Positions 35,614 to 51,174 of a DNA stretch of 64,000 nucleotides are shown piece by piece. Source of the DNA: Psychrobacter okhotskensis. Its GTDB lineage: Bacteria > Pseudomonadota > Gammaproteobacteria > Pseudomonadales > Moraxellaceae. Positions within the stretch are counted from its first letter, which is position 1, and each line of letters begins with the position of its first letter. The stretch is taken from positions 1 through 64,000 of the forward strand of contig NZ_JABRVQ010000022.1 in assembly GCF_013248965.1 (NCBI RefSeq), written 5' to 3'. The translations under genes were made by a program, and so were the position numbers. The notes beneath the pieces are model-generated. The model made no database searches. It worked only from the letters and a program-made list of their open reading frames with translations, and was not told where the DNA came from.

Positions 35614-35760
35614 ATGGCACACAAAAAAGCAAACCTACCGCAAAAAGTATGCCCAGTCTGTCAGCGCCCATTTACGTGGCGCAAGAAGTGGGAAAAGGAT
35701 TGGGAGCAGGTGATTTATTGTTCTGAGCGCTGTCGGCGGAGTAAGGATAAAACAGAGTAA
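35614..35760 (+). CDS. DUF2256 zinc-finger-like small protein, copy B
   Basis: The 48-residue protein reads [16 protein letters not shown] and continues [22 protein letters not shown]-type sequence, ending [10 protein letters not shown]. The four cysteines (13, 16, 36, 40) are conserved. A good ribosome site (AGGGA) lies a few bases before ATG 35614. It is a paralogue of copy A and very close to the truncated copies C and D downstream, so it is the likely parent of those fragments. Confidence 0.85.
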
Positions 35761-36226
35761 TTTTAAATGTCGATAATAGAAAACTGCCACGTCTTTAATC
35801 GAAGTATCTTTAAAAAGTAGAAGGTGCAGCTCATTTTTTGTTTTGCTAGGCTTTATCAATTCATAAAAACTCAATAATCAAAATCTCAGTCGTTGCTAGA
35901 TGTTAGCTAATGACTACAAAGAATGTTATTTGAATCATGGTCAAAACGTGAAATAGCGAATCGATTCTATCTCATTCAGCACTCCTGTCGCGATAACATC
36001 GCAAAAATATTTCAATCAACAAAATTCCATAAAATACTCGAAGTTACTAAGCTTATAATCTATAATGCTTTTTTTAAATTTTCTGTTTTTCAACAGACCC
36101 TAATATCTCAAAAATATACTCAATTTAACTCATATTCAACTAGGTCATGTTCTTATTTTTATTACTATTTTAAAATGCGGACACGCCCTAAACATTCACA
36201 TCAAATTTTAAGGTTCTAAGGATAGG
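35761..36226. other. AT-rich intergenic region with repeat fragments
   Basis: The first part (35775-35800) contains AATAGAAAACTGCCACGT, nearly identical to the start of the candidate RNA after the Abi gene at 39812. Near the right end GACACGCCCT (36180-36189) is the reverse complement of AGGGCGTGTC seen at 6509, 18760 and, less exactly, 55795. A 98-codon open frame (35923-36219) has no recognisable content and is not called. An AAGGA lies before ATG 36227. Confidence 0.5.
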
Positions 36227-37522: not shown

Positions 37523-38704
37523 ATGATAAATTCAATATCAGGCAAATGGTATCCCAAAGACAGCTCGGTTCAATACGCCGCGCAACTCAAGGTAGCTAAA
37601 ACGAGATATGAGGTAAAAATTGTATCTAGTGAGACTGGTAACGACAGCGAAAGACATCAAAATATCACGGGTCAGTGGTCGCAAGTGACGATCAATGATC
37701 GCTTAGGAAATACTGAACGCAAGCTTACACTTACTGATGGCTCACTCTTTACGACTCACAATAATGATGCTATCGATACTATAATCAATAGTAATAAAAA
37801 CAGCGATACAGCCTCAAAGTGGCGTTTACGCTTACATCGTCATGAAACAAAAATGACCAGCGTCTTGACGATGTTGGTCATCACTGTTGTTTTTGTATTT
37901 AGTTTTATTAAATGGGGTATTCCTTGGACGAGTCAAACAGTCGCTCATGCGCTCCCTCAGCAGACAGGCGAGTTTATAGGTCATCAGTCATTAGATTTTA
38001 TGGATCGTTACTTCTTAGAACCCACTCAAATAAGTGATGCTGAACAACAGCAAATCATATCTCGGTTTAAGACACGCCTTAAACCATTCGGTGGCGATGA
38101 CAATATTCAGTATCGGCTACACTTTAGGGATATGAGCGTAGGCGGCTCAAGTCTGCCAAACGCTTTTGCATTACCGTCTGGCGATATTATTTTGACCGAT
38201 AAGTTTGTAGAATTGAGCCAAAATGATGATGAGATAGATGCGGTACTGTTACATGAGATGGGTCATGTGGTCGAGCGTCATAGCTTAGAGATGCTCACTC
38301 AAAACTCATTAACCACGATGATTGTGATAATGGTACTGGGCAACCCAGACGGTATCAGTGAGCTTGCTACGGGGTTGGGCACGGCACTGGTGTCAAATCA
38401 CTATTCACGCCAGTATGAGACCGAAGCCGATGAGTTTGCCTTTAACAAGATGCTTGAGATTGGTATTGATCCAAAGGCCTTTGGAGATATCCTGAGCCGT
38501 ATGGAAGACTACTCGACCACAGCAACCAACGCAGATGACGCTGCAGACCAACCAGAAGCTGAAGCCAATAATGAAAAAGTTGAAGAGGTTGAGGAAGACA
38601 AACTGTCCGACTTCTTATCAAGTCATCCTAATACTCAGTTGCGGATTAAAATGGCAGAAAAATATAGCAAGTGCTTTAAGCAAGGGCTAAAGGTTTGTGA
38701 GTGA
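37523..38704 (+). CDS. M48 family zinc metallopeptidase, membrane-anchored
   Basis: From ATG 37523 the product has 393 residues; a GTG at 37502 would add seven. An N-terminal cytoplasmic stretch of about 110 residues precedes one membrane helix (SVLTMLVITVVFVFSFIKWGI). The catalytic domain has the zinc-binding HEMGH (in AVLLHEMGHVVERHS, near residue 245) and the third ligand in ETEADEFAF. The end contains SHPNTQLRIKMAEKYSKC, also typical of M48 (LoiP/BepA-like) enzymes. An acidic linker (about 340-365) is unusual. It follows the DUF898 gene and probably works with it. Confidence 0.9.
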   Translation: MINSISGKWYPKDSSVQYAAQLKVAKTRYEVKIVSSETGNDSERHQNITGQWSQVTINDRLGNTERKLTLTDGSLFTTHNNDAIDTIINSNKNSDTASKWRLRLHRHETKMTSVLTMLVITVVFVFSFIKWGIPWTSQTVAHALPQQTGEFIGHQSLDFMDRYFLEPTQISDAEQQQIISRFKTRLKPFGGDDNIQYRLHFRDMSVGGSSLPNAFALPSGDIILTDKFVELSQNDDEIDAVLLHEMGHVVERHSLEMLTQNSLTTMIVIMVLGNPDGISELATGLGTALVSNHYSRQYETEADEFAFNKMLEIGIDPKAFGDILSRMEDYSTTATNADDAADQPEAEANNEKVEEVEEDKLSDFLSSHPNTQLRIKMAEKYSKCFKQGLKVCE

Positions 38705-38712
38705 AGAAAGTA

Positions 38713-38812
38713 AAAAATCTGCCCCGTCTGCCAGCGCCCATTTACGTGGTGTAAGAAATGGGAGCAGATGATTTGTTGTTCGGAGCGATGTCGGCGGGGG
38801 AAGGGTGAGTAA
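38713..38812 (+). pseudogene. Truncated DUF2256 fragment, copy C
   Basis: Nine bases after the M48 stop codon the sequence becomes homologous to copy B from its codon 11 on: [23 protein letters not shown] and RCRRGKGE, then stop. The N-terminal ten codons are absent and a TAA precedes the homology in frame, so there is no start. Four codons (EKDW) are deleted inside. It is a remnant and not a functional gene. Confidence 0.85.
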
Positions 38813-38868
38813 ATAGCCGTCTTTCCAATAGATAATAAAATTGATGTTCTATCAAATTAGGTTTCAAT

Positions 38869-39780
38869 ATGTCATCTCAAACCAACAAAAAACGCTTACC
38901 TAAAAAATGGCAGTCTTATAAAGATCAAGTGGCTATTCTCGAAAGCAGAGGAATGATATTTGAAAATAAAGTTAAAGCAGAGCATGTTTTATCGCAGATA
39001 AATTATTATCGACTGAGTGGCTATTGGTATCCTTTTCGCATGTTAGCCTCAGATATGTCACGTGATGATGATTTTATAAATGACACTAGGTTTGAAGATA
39101 TACTGAATATCTACCTGTTTGATAAGCAGTTACGTTTATTATGTTTACAAGCACTTGAAAGTATCGAGATGTCAGTCAGAACTAATATTGCTCATACATT
39201 AGGACGTATCAGTCCAATAGCTCATCTTAATAAAGATAACTTTGACCAACGATTTGTAAATTCGCAAAACGGGCAATGGAGCTATGATAAATGGTTAAGT
39301 AAATATAATGAGCAGATTAGAAGAGCAAGAAAGTCACCTTTTATCGAACATCATCTCAATCATTATCAGTATTTACCAGTTTGGGTTGGCGTTGAGGTGT
39401 TAGACTTCGGTTCTATTTCAGTACTATATACAGGTTTAAAAGGTAGACAGCAGCAACAAATTTCAAAACTATATGGTGTCAGTAACGCCAAAGTTTTCGC
39501 AAGTTGGTTAAGGTCATTAAACTACGTGAGGAATATCTGCGCTCATCATGGACGCTTATGGAATGTCAATATTGACGTTATCGCTCAGCTTGATAAAAAT
39601 ATACCTAGCTTTCAGAATTTAGATAACAAGCGCATATATTTTTACTTAACGATGATGTGCTACTTATCGAAAACTATCAGTCCAAGCTCAAACTGGGAAG
39701 CAGAATTGAATACACTTTTGACGCGGTTTCCAACACCCCAAAACAAAGCAATTACTCTAATGGGCTTAGGGTTCGTATGA
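38869..39780 (+). CDS. Abi_2 family abortive infection protein (AbiD/AbiF-like, HEPN-type)
   Basis: The 303-residue protein matches the Abi_2 family, phage-resistance proteins first known from lactococcal AbiD/AbiF. Visible family features are YKDQVAILESRGM, INYYRLSGYWYPFR, YLFDKQLRLLCLQALESIEMSVRTNIAH, YLPVWVGVEVLDFGSISVLY and SLNYVRNICAHHGRLWN. The last contains an R-x4-H motif (RNICAH) typical of HEPN RNases, so it may cleave RNA during infection and stop growth. The start at ATG 38869 lacks a strong ribosome site. It sits between two truncated DUF2256 copies and is followed by a candidate structured RNA, which would suit a toxin controlled by an RNA. Confidence 0.88.
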   Translation: MSSQTNKKRLPKKWQSYKDQVAILESRGMIFENKVKAEHVLSQINYYRLSGYWYPFRMLASDMSRDDDFINDTRFEDILNIYLFDKQLRLLCLQALESIEMSVRTNIAHTLGRISPIAHLNKDNFDQRFVNSQNGQWSYDKWLSKYNEQIRRARKSPFIEHHLNHYQYLPVWVGVEVLDFGSISVLYTGLKGRQQQQISKLYGVSNAKVFASWLRSLNYVRNICAHHGRLWNVNIDVIAQLDKNIPSFQNLDNKRIYFYLTMMCYLSKTISPSSNWEAELNTLLTRFPTPQNKAITLMGLGFV

Positions 39781-39811
39781 TTGCAATAAGTTCAGATACT
39801 AAAATTAAAAC

Positions 39812-39910
39812 AATAGAAAACCGCCACGTTTTCTAACCCAATGTTACCAGAGGAGGAAGATAGAGGTGGCGGTGCTGTTAAGTACTATTATAGCAATGCT
39901 ATGGCTTTAA
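39812..39910 (+). ncRNA. Candidate structured RNA downstream of the Abi gene
   Basis: ACCGCCAC at 39820-39827 pairs perfectly with GTGGCGGT at 39866-39873, enclosing a purine-rich loop (AGAGGAGGAAGATAGAG). A second hairpin, ATAGC-AAT-GCTAT at 39890-39902, follows. There is no open frame across it, and it fills most of the 181-base gap between the Abi gene and the next start. Its first 21 bases recur after DUF2256 copy B (19 of 21 identical). The boundaries and existence of a transcript are inferred. Confidence 0.45.
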
Positions 39911-39961
39911 TCAAGAATAAATTTAACGAATTGAATCAGTTCTAAAGTATAAAGGCAAATT

Positions 39962-40456
39962 ATGAGTAAACATTTTAAACACTCAAGCTTTCGAGAGAAG
40001 CTTATTGAACATCTATTCATCAGTGAAATGCTCAAACTGTCATGGAAAAAAGGTGATTGTCAGCTTGAAGTAATGAAGCCTGAAGTTGACAATGCTGGCT
40101 GTGATGTTGTCCTTGAAAATAATAATATTATTCGTCACATTCAGCTCAAAGCTTCGAAACTAGGTGGTAAAACATCAAGACAGAACATCAATAATCGTTT
40201 AGCAACTAAGCCTTCAGGGTGTATTGTTTGGATAATATTTAATGAGGACACTTTAGAATTGTGCTCATTTTATTTTTTTGGCGCTGAAGCAGGAAAGCCA
40301 TTAGTTGGATTGGAAGATGCTAAAATTGCCAAACACACCAAAGGTAATGCCAGTGGATTGAAAGCTGAACGACCTAATATTCGTACGCTCAATAAAGGAC
40401 AGTTTATTCGATACGATAGTATTGAAACTTTGTATGACGTCTTATTTTTTACATAA
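39962..40456 (+). CDS. Small protein with likely PD-(D/E)xK nuclease fold
   Basis: The 164-residue protein has a central segment, [31 protein letters not shown], with the spacing of a restriction-endonuclease-like active site (acidic residues, G-x-D, then QLK). A helix before it ([19 protein letters not shown]) fits the same fold, recalling DUF4365-type proteins. That assignment is tentative. The rest ([22 protein letters not shown]) would be the following strands. It is short and has no recognisable DNA-binding domain, so it might be a nuclease subunit or a regulator. It lies downstream of the Abi gene and RNA and upstream of DUF2256 fragment D, whose open frame overlaps its last 23 bases. 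Confidence 0.6.
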
Positions 40457-40589
40457 AAGCAGAGCTATCAAAAAAGTCTGCCCTGTCTGCCAGCGACCTT
40501 TTACATGGCGTAAGAAGTGGGAAAAGGATTGGGAACAGGTTTTTTATTGTTCTGAGCGTTGTCGGCGGGGGAAAGAGAATAAAAGTTAA
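40434..40589 (+). pseudogene. Truncated DUF2256 fragment, copy D, with a chance new start
   Basis: Homology to copy B starts near 40468, at the same codon where copy C begins ([17 protein letters not shown], then [14 protein letters not shown]). The native N-terminus is missing. The frame is nevertheless open back to ATG 40434, inside the preceding gene, which would give a 51-residue hybrid with all four cysteines intact ([12 protein letters not shown] fused to the zinc-finger part). No ribosome site is seen at that ATG. Translation coupled to the upstream gene is possible but unproven. Confidence 0.75.
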
Positions 40590-40692: not shown

Positions 40693-42828
40693 GTGCATAT
40701 TTCTAAATTCATCATAAGAAACTTTCGAAACTTTGAATCCGCAGATTTCAATTTTAAGGAAGGTGTTAATACTATTATTGGTGAAAATGGTTCAGGTAAA
40801 ACTAATTTTTTTTATGCTCTTCGGCTTATGCTTGATGATACTCTACCTCGTTATATTGGATTTGGCGAACGAGATTTCAATCGAAATTTAGGCAATTGGC
40901 AGGGTCATTGGATAATTTTGACTACACATTTTAGCGAGTTAGACTTAAGTGAAGAATCACAAGCTCTAAGCATACATGCTTGTGGCCAAGTAGATACTGA
41001 GGAAGAGAAGGCTAAAGGGAGCTATATATTATGCTTTCGTCCGAAGTCTCATATTAGACAAGAGCTTTATGAATATTCCCAAAAAGAAGATAAAGACAAA
41101 AATGGACTGGAAAACATTCTAAGCCAAATTAATATTACCGATTACGAGACTGTTTATCTTTGCAGAGGATATCTAAACTTTAGTAAAGACGATATTTACA
41201 AAAGTTATGTTGGTGATTTTGAGAATATTATATTCCCAAATCCAAATGAACAGCAAAAACAAAAGTACGGTGACTATTTACCTAGGGAAATTAACCTATA
41301 CAATGAGATATCGTGCACCTTTATTAAGGCACTGCGAGATGTCGCTAGTGACTTACGATCATACTCCAATAATCCGCTTGTTAGATTGTTAAAAGGTAAA
41401 GGTAAATCAATTGAAATTGAAACTCAAAATGATTTAGTTGATAGTATTAACGAACTTAATAGTAGTATTGCTAGTCTTAATGAGGTAATTGATGTACAAA
41501 AAGGAATTGACGATAGTTTAAAGCAGGCTGTAGGTACAACTTATGCACCTAATATCGAAATCAGAGCTGAATTGCCTAACAAAATGGATAAATTATTGCA
41601 GTCCTTGAGACTGTGGGTAGGTGATTCAGATGATGAAGATAGAGGACAAATAGCAGAACTAAGTTTAGGCGGTGCAAACTTAATTTTTTTATCTTTGAAG
41701 CTTCTAGAGTATGAAAAAATAAAAACAGACAAGGTAGCTAATGTTTTATTAATTGAAGAACCTGAAGCTCATATTCACACTCATATACAAAAGACATTAT
41801 TCGACAATCTACATCAACATAATACGCAAATATTTGTCTCTACTCATTCGACTCAAATATCATCGGTCAGTAAAATTAGTAGCGTAAATATACTAAGCTG
41901 TGAAAATAAGAAGTCAGTTGTATTTAACCCTTCATTTGATTTAGATAATAATGAGGTTGTTAGAATTGAACGATACCTAGATGCTGTTAGAAGTGATTTG
42001 TTATTTGCAAAAGGTGTTCTACTAATTGAGGGGGATGCAGAACAAATTTTAATACCAGTAATATTTAAAAAAGTCTTTGGTTTGTCCTTAGATGAAATTG
42101 GTATCAGCCTTATCAATATTGGTAGTACGGGTTTTAAGAATATTGCAAGAATATTCCATCAAGATAGAGTTAATCGTAGATGTGGCATTATCACAGACTT
42201 TGATGAGTCTTTTATTAGCTTGCCTATTAATAAAGATGATGATAACCCAGAGCAAAAAAAGGCTAGGAACTCACAAAAAAGTGGAATAGAAAGAAAAGCT
42301 AATCTTGAGCTTTTTTGTGAGAATAATATGTGTATTAAACCTTTTTTTGCAAAAAATACATTTGAAGTAGATATGTTATTAGAAAGTAATGCATATGAAT
42401 TCAAAAATGTGGTTCATAAGATTTATAAAACTGATAGTAAAATAAAAGAATCCAAGAGTAATTTGGATTCTGAAGATGTTGAAGTTTCTGGACGAGAGGT
42501 TCTCAAATTAGCAACAACTAAAAAGAAAGGATGGTTTGCATTATTAGTAGCAGAAGAGGTTAACGTTGAGACAGGAGTGCCAGACTATATTCTTAGTGCA
42601 ATTGCATGGTCTTCTCCACATATAAATTCAGCATCAAAAGTTAAAGCTGCGAGATATAGATTAGAGAATGTTTATTTTACTGCTGAATTGTTAAAAGAAG
42701 ATAGAGAAGTGATTGAAATGTATTCAAATTTTAAATCAATTGAAAGTGATGAAGATCTACTGATACAGTTTAGAGACTGCTTTCAAAACGACCCATTAAC
42801 TAAGCTTCTAAATCATTATGATTCTTAA
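40693..42828 (+). CDS. gajA: OLD-family ATP-dependent nuclease (GajA-like, Gabija)
   Basis: The 711-residue protein starts with GTG at 40693 (AGGA a few bases before). The N-terminal ABC-type ATPase has Walker A GENGSGKT at 30-37, an AELSLGGANLIFLSLKLL signature and Walker B LLIEEPEAH near 355, with VSTHSTQ after it. A TOPRIM domain follows: VLLIEGDAEQILIP near 445 (catalytic Glu) and GIITDFDESF near 498 (DxD). This is the OLD architecture. The helicase gene overlapping its end makes it a class 2 OLD enzyme, that is GajA of the Gabija anti-phage system, in which a nucleotide-sensitive endonuclease is released on phage infection. It is longer than the ~580-residue reference GajA. The gene is distinctly AT-rich, a sign of transfer. 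Confidence 0.85.
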   Translation: MHISKFIIRNFRNFESADFNFKEGVNTIIGENGSGKTNFFYALRLMLDDTLPRYIGFGERDFNRNLGNWQGHWIILTTHFSELDLSEESQALSIHACGQVDTEEEKAKGSYILCFRPKSHIRQELYEYSQKEDKDKNGLENILSQINITDYETVYLCRGYLNFSKDDIYKSYVGDFENIIFPNPNEQQKQKYGDYLPREINLYNEISCTFIKALRDVASDLRSYSNNPLVRLLKGKGKSIEIETQNDLVDSINELNSSIASLNEVIDVQKGIDDSLKQAVGTTYAPNIEIRAELPNKMDKLLQSLRLWVGDSDDEDRGQIAELSLGGANLIFLSLKLLEYEKIKTDKVANVLLIEEPEAHIHTHIQKTLFDNLHQHNTQIFVSTHSTQISSVSKISSVNILSCENKKSVVFNPSFDLDNNEVVRIERYLDAVRSDLLFAKGVLLIEGDAEQILIPVIFKKVFGLSLDEIGISLINIGSTGFKNIARIFHQDRVNRRCGIITDFDESFISLPINKDDDNPEQKKARNSQKSGIERKANLELFCENNMCIKPFFAKNTFEVDMLLESNAYEFKNVVHKIYKTDSKIKESKSNLDSEDVEVSGREVLKLATTKKKGWFALLVAEEVNVETGVPDYILSAIAWSSPHINSASKVKAARYRLENVYFTAELLKEDREVIEMYSNFKSIESDEDLLIQFRDCFQNDPLTKLLNHYDS

Positions 42829-44575
42829 TAGCCTCACACTCGAACAGAAACTTGCTGTACAACAAGATGGTCATGTATTACTTTCTGCTTGTCCAGGTAG
42901 CGGAAAGACACGTACTATTATTCATAAGTTAGCATATGAATCTAGTCGGTTGGATGAGAACAGTAAGAAAAAAGTCGTTGCTGTTACTTTCACTGTACGG
43001 GCATCTGATGAGATCTTTAATCGACTTAATAGAATGTCTATAGATAGTTCTAGGATTTGGTCTGGAACATTGCACTCTTTTTGCCTAGAATGGATTTTGA
43101 AACCATACTCTTGTTACCTTCTTGAACTTCAAAATGGTTACACAATAGCTGACGAAGCTTATAAAATTTCATTAATAAATGATTTAAAGAAAAAGTATAG
43201 AGTAGATTTATATATTGACAACACTCGGCTTGATAGGAATGGTTGTTTTGTTGAGTCTGATAATAGAAAGAAGACAATATTAAATTACTATCACCAAGAT
43301 TTGAAAGAACAGAAACTAATAGATTTTGATTTGTTATTGTATTACTCATACCAGTTATTAGTTACGCATCCGAAAATCGGAAGAGTACTGTCAAATTTGT
43401 TTCACCTAATATGTGTTGATGAATACCAAGATACTCAAGATTTATCATACGCAATTATTTGTAATATTATCAATGCTGATAACGGCAACACTTCATTATT
43501 TCTAGCAGGTGATATTGACCAAGCGATATATCACTCTTTGGGTGGTGTTGCTAAAAATAAGACAGAAATTGAATCTGAGTTGAATGGACAAAAAATCATT
43601 GAGATATCTCTAACAGGTAACTTTCGCTCAACTCAGAGAATTATTGATTATTACAATAGCTTTCAGAGTAACCCTATTCGTATAATTGCTCAAGGTGCTA
43701 ATGCCAATGAACAAGGAGTTATCTCATATAACAATACAGTCAATAAAGATGAACTAATTAATGAGATAGTTAGGTTAATTAAAGAAAGCATTAATAATGG
43801 TGTCGCTGAAAATGAGATATGTGTGTTATTTCCTCAATGGTGGCTCATCACTTCTATAACTGGAAAACTAAAATCCCTACTACCTGATGTAAACTTCGAT
43901 GCTTCTGGACTTGCACCTATGTCCAAAAATCGTGATAATTTTTGGTATAAACTGTCTCATTTATTTCTAACAGAATCTAGCCCTACTATCTACTCGCTAC
44001 GCTATAAATGGGCAAAAGAGTTGATTGATAAGTTTCACGAGCATACTGGTACGGAGTTTCCTGAACCTTACTACATTGAACGTAACCTTCTTCGTTTAAC
44101 AAATTTAATAACATCGGATAAAACCGATGTAGTTAGTTATTTAGAGGACTGCTTTCTCCAATTTGCAAACAAACTAAATTTAAATTCAAAAAAATATCCT
44201 AGCTTGGGAGAGAGTTGGAAAGTTTATTTTAAAAATATTAAATCAAGGCTAAATGATAGAAGTTACAATGTTCCAAGTGATATCGATTCTTTTAAAAAAC
44301 TTTATAAAGAAAGAGGTGGAATTGTTATAAACACTTGTATGGGTATTAAGGGAGAAGAGTTTGAAACAGTCATTGCCTTTGGTTTATTAAATGGATATAT
44401 TCCACACTCAAATGAATCCAGCCCTCATCATGCTTCTAATAAAATGATGTATGTAATTTCTTCAAGGGCTAAAAAAAACCTTCATCTCATTAGTGAGACA
44501 GGACGAATGATAAGATATTCTAATAGCGTAGCTACACCTGTTTTGAGTAGCAAAAGATATAGATATGATAAATAG
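42818..44575 (+). CDS. gajB: UvrD/PcrA-like helicase (GajB-like, Gabija)
   Basis: The 585-residue protein has superfamily 1 helicase motifs: Walker A ACPGSGKT at 24-31, motif Ia AVTFTVRASDEI, motif II VDEYQDTQ near 200, motif III FLAGDIDQAIY, motif IV LTGNFRST, motif V TCMGIKGEEFETVIAFGL and motif VI MYVISSRAKKNLHLI. Its start overlaps the end of the OLD gene by 11 bases, so the two are translated as a pair. GajB is thought to act with GajA and to process phage DNA. UvrD-type repair helicases are much longer (around 700 residues or more), which also argues for GajB. Base composition is as AT-rich as gajA. Confidence 0.88.
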   Translation: MILNSLTLEQKLAVQQDGHVLLSACPGSGKTRTIIHKLAYESSRLDENSKKKVVAVTFTVRASDEIFNRLNRMSIDSSRIWSGTLHSFCLEWILKPYSCYLLELQNGYTIADEAYKISLINDLKKKYRVDLYIDNTRLDRNGCFVESDNRKKTILNYYHQDLKEQKLIDFDLLLYYSYQLLVTHPKIGRVLSNLFHLICVDEYQDTQDLSYAIICNIINADNGNTSLFLAGDIDQAIYHSLGGVAKNKTEIESELNGQKIIEISLTGNFRSTQRIIDYYNSFQSNPIRIIAQGANANEQGVISYNNTVNKDELINEIVRLIKESINNGVAENEICVLFPQWWLITSITGKLKSLLPDVNFDASGLAPMSKNRDNFWYKLSHLFLTESSPTIYSLRYKWAKELIDKFHEHTGTEFPEPYYIERNLLRLTNLITSDKTDVVSYLEDCFLQFANKLNLNSKKYPSLGESWKVYFKNIKSRLNDRSYNVPSDIDSFKKLYKERGGIVINTCMGIKGEEFETVIAFGLLNGYIPHSNESSPHHASNKMMYVISSRAKKNLHLISETGRMIRYSNSVATPVLSSKRYRYDK

Positions 44576-50872: not shown

Positions 50873-51098
50873 GTGCATGCATTTTTTTGTCCATACATAA
50901 TGCCATGATGCTTCTGTCATTTAACCATATAGTCAAAATACCCTAAAAGCGCGACGCTATCAGCAGTGCCTCATGGTTCGATATTACTTTTCACTAACTA
51001 TAGATGCTTACACTCATAAGAAAATACGCTCAAAGCCGTTATTAAAGCTATGTTTGCCTTTGCTGTTTTTTACTTTAATCACTCCAAACTTATAAACT

Positions 51099-51131
51099 AA
51101 AAAGCCCGAGACAATGGTCTCGGGCTTTTTT
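51099..51131. terminator. Bidirectional terminator after the symporter gene
   Basis: AAAAAGCCCGAGAC pairs perfectly with GTCTCGGGCTTTTT around a four-base loop. It closes the minus-strand symporter gene, whose stop lies 44 bases away, and could also stop plus-strand transcripts. Confidence 0.9.
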
Positions 51132-51174
51132 ATTTTTGCTTAATAAGAATGAACAGTAGGCACATCAAAGAACG

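Follow-up and report, generated by a model that had tools for sequence, protein, structure and literature searches.

The 64,000-nucleotide (nt) stretch of Psychrobacter okhotskensis DNA analysed here (contig NZ_JABRVQ010000022.1, positions 1 to 64,000; hereafter the window) carries, in the noncoding gap behind a phage-defence gene of the Abi_2 family, a conserved RNA-like element which is very probably (we would put it at about 0.8) the abiF-type RNA of that gene. It is read as an RNA of some 75 nt with its own minus-strand promoter, a GC-rich stem (P1) and a U-rich tail, probably acting as the RNA antitoxin of the Abi_2 ribonuclease. The stem covaries among related loci, the surrounding letters carry strand signals and the element accompanies Abi_2 genes; the antitoxin role is likely by homology with published AbiF systems.

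The Abi_2 protein family, its link with RNA and its role as a toxin-antitoxin pair are already known, and the literature on RNA-linked AbiF and on Cas13 ancestry that the original prediction (a note made from the letters of the window) had pointed to is real (PMC12373285, PMC12165695). In Clostridioides difficile the RNA RCd22 binds the AbiF toxin directly and so neutralises it, both in cis and in trans; the stems of the RNA matter, and R202 and H207 of the HEPN motif are required for toxicity (PMC12373285). The structure of PbAbiF has been solved together with its noncoding RNA (AbiFr), an antitoxin (PMC12373285, PMC12737573).

The Abi_2 protein of the window has a clear Abi_2 domain (Pfam PF07751, E 1.4e-59), is assigned to AbiD by PADLOC (E 2.6e-68) and retains an intact HEPN RxxxxH motif (RNICAH, residues 221-226), whose arginine and histidine are invariant in 70 of 70 aligned Abi_2 rows. 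By sequence it is a homologue of PbAbiF (PDB 8vz6; phmmer E 1.8e-35, with the RNxxxH motif aligned). This is the nearest solved protein, a HEPN dimer with one antitoxin RNA per monomer (PMC12373285, PMC12737573), and the comparison with it was made at the protein level only.

Covariation of the stem

From the end of Abi_2 (stop at 39780) to the open reading frame that follows (39962) the gap measures 181 nt (39781-39961) and, as originally predicted, contains a perfect 8-bp inverted repeat, ACCGCCAC at 39820-39827 and GTGGCGGT at 39866-39873. Behind all 20 of the related Abi_2 genes L004-L023, which show 38-64% identity to that of the window (L009 and L012 each have one in-frame stop), a hairpin with similar flanks but different stem letters could be delimited. 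The absence of the stem beside close Abi homologues, which the original prediction had named as a ground for giving it up, was therefore not observed.

An alignment of these 20 RNAs and that of the window (A3, made with MAFFT on the RNA strand) shows a 7-bp P1 helix in which 147 of 147 cells pair. Two pairs are invariant and the other five of the seven show changes on both sides (44 cells), so that the compensatory changes looked for in the CCGCCAC/GTGGCGG stem are present across Abi_2 neighbourhoods. The covariation score of P1 was 0.791 against 0.192 +/- 0.035 in 500 shuffles, none of which reached it, and fell to 0.022-0.080 when the partner was slid. After removal of the window and its three nearest relatives the remaining 17 sequences still paired in 119 of 119 cells (score 0.818), and RNAalifold, run unprompted on the complementary alignment, returned exactly the P1 helix. 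The 15 close copies found within the genus displayed by themselves no clear covariation by eye; the distant Abi_2 neighbourhoods were needed for it. Outside P1 the recurrent features are leader letters, CYCU and a -10-like box. Together the alignments point to a structured RNA with a covarying stem adjacent to Abi_2.

Linkage to Abi_2

Three covariance models, whose E-values are rough, were used. R1 was built on the plus strand, R2 was rebuilt on the minus strand after matches of the Rfam family RF03085 in related loci, and R3 was made from 17 RNAs, with those of the window, L004, L005 and L006 excluded. Searched over the 64 kb, R3 placed the element first (53.9 bits, E 3.4e-9), the next match having 19.5 bits. 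With the covariation and the linkage described below, this independent match supports the predicted structured RNA partner of the HEPN protein, which passed the tests that could be made on sequence.

The loci fall into two layouts. In 26 of them (L024-L032, L099-L115) the RNA stands in front of Abi_2 on the strand of the gene (upstream layout; aligned over 190 nt 5' of Abi_2 without use of structure), and in the window, L004-L023, L096-L098 and L146 it stands behind Abi_2 on the opposite strand (downstream layout). On 29 Abi_2 loci outside its training set, some of them near-identical, R1 gave 23 matches up to E 10, of which 20 adjoin Abi_2, with weak E-values of 0.01-4.6, and three lie elsewhere. 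Over 49 sources R2 recovered its 21 training matches and 18 more beside Abi_2 among 28 non-training loci, with one chance spot (two matches) at 51081-51148 of the window. A third set of 20 further Abi_2 loci yielded the RNA in 16, with L146 found by R2 and 15 by the profile of the upstream set, of whose members some of these 15 are near-copies. Finally, in a distant set of seven plasmid loci (7 of 40 listed of 413 matching records) and two Actinomyces loci, R2 had matches beside Abi_2 in four of nine: downstream of the gene in Moraxella osloensis, Methylomonas and Rhizobium, and upstream in Scytonema. The element thus occurs beside Abi_2 across many genera. A search of the gap, as DNA, against phages and plasmids gave no match at E up to 0.01.

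It seems unlikely that the hairpin merely terminates transcription between genes that converge or adjoin and plays no part as a partner. A GC stem followed by a U-rich stretch on the minus strand is indeed what a terminator would offer, and a plain terminator-like hairpin elsewhere in the window was picked up by the models too, though with 19.5 bits against the 53.9 of the element. The loop of 38 nt is moreover long for a terminator (the terminator scan allows 3-8 nt, so its zero hits are uninformative), letters outside P1 recur, and the element accompanies Abi_2 in many genera with a position that follows the Abi_2 tree. The hairpin in question (51081-51149), an ordinary one with a T-run, is the sole other R2 or R3 match in the window.

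Strand and anatomy of the RNA

The minus strand is the most likely one for the RNA, which would then converge with Abi_2. It is read on that strand because RF03085, the abiF RNA family of Rfam, matches related hairpins on the corresponding strand. At the gathering threshold this 37-position model hit the Abi_2-sense strand in three of 19 upstream-layout loci (L104, 55 bits; L107, 53.5; L108, 42.4) and a fourth time in one of 16 other loci of that layout (L148). The hairpin recognised in L104 and L108 is the one which R1 had matched on the complement, and that in L107 is the one of the upstream alignment. The models of the downstream RNAs in turn weakly match the hairpins recognised by RF03085 (L104, 25.6 bits; L108, 17.5 and 16.3; L148, 21.7). 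The likeness between the family and the element consists of an outer GC stem, CCUCU and an inner helix, with the same strand logic in these four loci.

Letters around the stem point the same way. In 18 of the 21 downstream-layout RNAs the stem is preceded by a hexamer that matches TATAAT at five or six positions and ends 11-14 nt away from it; on the opposite strand five of 21 have one, whatever its distance. The 10 nt past the stem hold on average 6.9 T when read on the RNA strand and 3.9 when read on the opposite one. The upstream set is less clear (hexamer in 16/26 against 9/26; T 6.1 against 4.2), and these averages include about seven rows in which the wrong helix was picked (L015, L025, L028, L029, L103, L105, L109). 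In the window the extended TTGATT-16-TATAAT site with TG on the minus strand, agreeing at 10 of 12 positions, is the top-scoring of 10 scanned sites.

A plus-strand reading, in which the Abi_2 mRNA would have a structured 3' end, is quite improbable, even though the hairpin is nearly symmetric and the folding energy prefers it. On that strand 39812-39910 folds at -30.0 kcal/mol against -19.9 +/- 2.9 in 200 dinucleotide shuffles (z -3.46 over 99 nt; none as stable), compared with a z of -2.08 for 39882-39798 over 85 nt on the minus strand (seven of 200 shuffles as stable); the whole gap gives -2.81 (one of 200). Folding energy alone is thus only moderate support on the minus strand, and the strand was called without it. 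What speaks for the minus strand is that the three of 147 P1 cells left unpaired on the plus strand are all G-U pairs on the minus strand, that the promoter-like site and the U-tail lie there, and that RF03085 matches related loci on the strand opposite to the plus-strand reading.

On the minus strand the anatomy would be that of Table 1, and the match of the covariance model spans 39890-39797. The original prediction of an RNA right after the gene at 39812-39910 was therefore essentially correct in length and place and most likely erred in the strand, which it took as plus. The loop enclosed by P1, which had been described as purine-rich, is so on the plus strand and hence pyrimidine-rich in the RNA itself. 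A second hairpin, also predicted, does exist on paper with 7 bp. It is probably promoter sequence and not part of the RNA, because it overlaps the -10 box of the minus strand together with the preceding spacer and, judged by eye, is missing from the sequence flanking L004 and L005, the nearest homologues.

Table 1. Abi_2 gene and putative features of its RNA in the window
Feature	Position	Strand	Remarks
Abi_2 (AbiD/AbiF) HEPN ribonuclease gene	38869..39780	+	303 amino acids; catalytic motif R221-N-I-C-A-H226
Putative abiF-type RNA	about 39880 -> 39800	-	ends inferred; 3' end in U-rich tail, about 39813-39800
Promoter-like site of the RNA	39887..39914	-	-35 TTGATT 39914-39909; 16-nt spacer; extended -10 TATAAT 39892-39887
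Stem P1, 5' arm	39866..39873	-	ACCGCCAC on minus strand
Stem P1, 3' arm	39820..39827	-	GTGGCGGT on minus strand
U-rich tail after P1	39796..39819	-	terminator-like; read from sequence

Besides the folding energy, a number of results weigh against an abiF-type RNA at this place. RF03085 leaves 38700-40000 unmatched even with E allowed up to 10 and has no match at the gathering threshold in the whole window; at that threshold it matches none of 22 downstream-layout loci (the window, L096 and L146 included) and misses 16/19 and 15/16 upstream-layout loci, 31/35 in all. R2 was without a match in 10 of the 28 non-training loci and found no RNA in five of the nine distant ones (L168, L171, L172, L001, L002), and in the third set R2 and the upstream profile found none at L147, L160 and L164 and reached L158 only at E 0.54. 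As to covariation, two of five measures were reached by shuffles in the 21-sequence alignment (both-side pairs in 81/500, further pair types in 119/500) and likewise in that of 17 sequences (78/500 and 78/500). The measure of both-side pairs was also reached in the upstream-set alignment, and both measures on the plus strand. The tool warns that relatedness alone may raise the remaining measures. The boundaries of the element in alignments A1 and A3 were drawn by eye, and the helix of the upstream set pairs in only 80.7% of cells (score 0.271 against 0.122 when shuffled). Lastly, the promoter scan is barely above chance (10 sites against 6.6 +/- 2.3 expected). Since RF03085 is blind to most upstream loci too, invisibility to Rfam is no mark of the downstream branch alone. 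The present Rfam model sees a small part of the RNAs linked to Abi_2, and the alignments obtained here are material for a better one.

Proposed mechanism and comparison with known systems

In the mechanism that we propose, a minus-strand promoter would give rise to the RNA of about 75 nt, convergent with Abi_2, which would fold so that the GC-rich P1 closes around CCUCU and an inner part that varies, with the U-rich tail at the 3' end. This RNA would bind the HEPN dimer of Abi_2 and keep the ribonuclease off. Being presumably short-lived, it could be lost or titrated, for instance when host transcription is stopped by a phage; the freed Abi_2 would then cleave RNA and growth would stop, in the manner of a type III-like toxin-antitoxin pair. 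At the locus of the window we infer transcription, binding, inhibition and trigger alike.

The nearest described system, AbiF/RCd22 of C. difficile, resembles the window in that a HEPN protein of the Abi_2 family has a structured RNA next to its gene. The C. difficile RNA, however, lies upstream on the strand of the gene and has hairpins and a leader terminator (PMC12373285), whereas the window has one longer hairpin, downstream and, by its sequence signs, on the opposite strand. With such a position the RNA could not gate the transcription of Abi_2 through a leader terminator as in C. difficile. Control would instead pass through binding of RNA and protein, with perhaps some antisense contact at the 3' ends. 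The downstream branch thereby separates protein binding from the gating of transcription, two roles that go together in C. difficile.

The ToxIN, AbiQ and CptIN systems of type III likewise have a protein toxin held by an RNA, but their toxins are of another family and they have repeated RNA units before the toxin gene, with pseudoknots in ToxIN (PMC12373285). With regard to CRISPR-Cas13 (type VI), the Abi_2 HEPN proteins are the proposed ancestors (PMC12165695, PMC12373285), and no guide role is indicated for the RNA of the window, where no array search was made. Where AbiF-type RNAs are placed, how they are made and how they are recognised bear on the passage from a non-guided antitoxin to a guide.

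Layout and evolution

The position of the RNA was compared with a midpoint-rooted Abi_2 tree with 70 rows, of which 69 come from these loci, without the fragment L165, and one is the AbiF of phage phiC2. Every row outside the downstream set was given the upstream label, L147, L158, L160 and L164 among them, where the RNA was not firmly detected. With these labels the 25 downstream-layout rows form one side of a branch, requiring one change of layout against about 21 with shuffled labels (0/500 as low). The branch of 25 rows is weakly supported (82/39), a single change sufficing in 81% of bootstrap trees; the set of 27 rows formed with L024 and L147 is strongly supported (99/97). The RNA seems to have moved in one switch from the front of Abi_2 to behind it, a direction suggested by the occurrence of the front layout in C. 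difficile and in the loci matched by RF03085. No description of the downstream convergent layout or of toxin-free copies was found in the literature searched, as far as its text was available; that literature did not extend to the main primary paper, Zilberzwige-Tal et al., and the result is no proof of novelty.

Copies without a toxin

A DNA search of the 105 genomes of the genus found close copies of the element in 15. Three of these (window included) lie directly behind Abi_2 and one behind a C-terminal stub of the gene (L061/L120). P1, with G-U pairs allowed, is intact in these three and in the one beside the stub, and among the solo copies it is intact in six of 11 and broken in five. With R2 the number rose to 31 copies in 26 of the 105 genomes. 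Of the 30 loci checked, with up to 1.5 kb on each side (the 31st copy, G182:C6, was left out), 11 are beside a full Abi_2, four beside a C-terminal remnant and 15 beside none by tblastn, so that 19 of 30 have no intact Abi_2 nearby.

Conversely, the three sets together comprise 70 Abi_2 loci (21, 29 and 20), of which four are without an RNA clearly shown by model, profile or alignment. RNA-only copies set against few RNA-less toxins are the pattern expected if the toxin were lost before the antitoxin and not the reverse. This is suggestive only, as diverged RNAs are hard to detect and detection was partly by eye. The toxin-free RNAs are directly testable as orphan antitoxins. A wider scenario, which we regard as rather doubtful, would have the RNA antitoxin leave the leader of its toxin once in the Abi_2 family and become an independent convergent gene, with the loss of transcriptional gating. 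Toxin-free copies in defence hotspots would still be made and would disarm incoming or resident AbiF-type toxins as 'vaccines' or anti-addiction RNAs, some of them being kept by selection.

Several of these copies have other neighbours. In L128, L132, L138, L143 and L145 there is a second RNA site without a full Abi_2 (a stub is left in L128, L132 and L145), and in each a gene of 282-405 amino acids, related-looking by eye, adjoins the RNA. The copies in L124, L125, L126 and L139 stand without Abi_2 beside other genes that they share, namely a membrane-like protein of 243 amino acids in L124 and L125, shortened in L126, and a protein of 274 amino acids in L125 and L139.

A probable DUF2256-metH hotspot

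The locus is situated in a region that, from its sequence, looks like an integration hotspot marked by 3'-end fragments of DUF2256. A full DUF2256 gene lies at 35614-35745 and copies of its 3' part at 38714-38803 and 40470-40583. These pieces flank successive cargo before metH: a gene for 394 amino acids with an M48 gene, then Abi_2 with its RNA and a 164-amino-acid gene, then Gabija (GajA/GajB, 40693-44575 by PADLOC, downstream of the Abi_2 locus). DUF2256 of this kind is present in 97 of the 105 genomes and, in 30 loci read, is often directly followed by differing sequence.

That the element is itself a DNA recombination or attachment site of this hotspot and no RNA gene at all is very unlikely. 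Six of the 15 close copies begin 11-19 nt after a DUF2256 match, 11 of the 15 lack an Abi_2 gene in the sequence fetched around them and show no stub of one by tblastn, and the DUF2256 3'-end fragments are repeated in the window. Yet the Abi_2-linked copy of L060 (G240) has no DUF2256 match in 19.9 kb, and a DNA site needs neither covariation nor a promoter nor a U-tail. Both an attachment or cassette-end site and the coding end of a lost gene were dropped as candidates, since the same element occurs with Abi_2 genes elsewhere, where its stems differ and still pair. The abiF-type RNA remains the preferred reading of the element.

The first open reading frame after the gap (39962-40456, plus strand) encodes the 164-amino-acid protein, which has no Pfam or PADLOC match. 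A copy with 84% identity stands behind the RNA in L052 and relatives follow DUF2256 directly in L069 and L070, and it looks like an uncharacterised cargo gene of the hotspot. With nhmmer, weak and decayed-looking copies of the RNA were also seen right after DUF2256, at 35775-35800 of the window (E 0.27), at 9091-9151 of L054 (E 0.27) and at 1412-1473 of L092 (E 7e-7). They may be relics of an earlier Abi_2/RNA unit.
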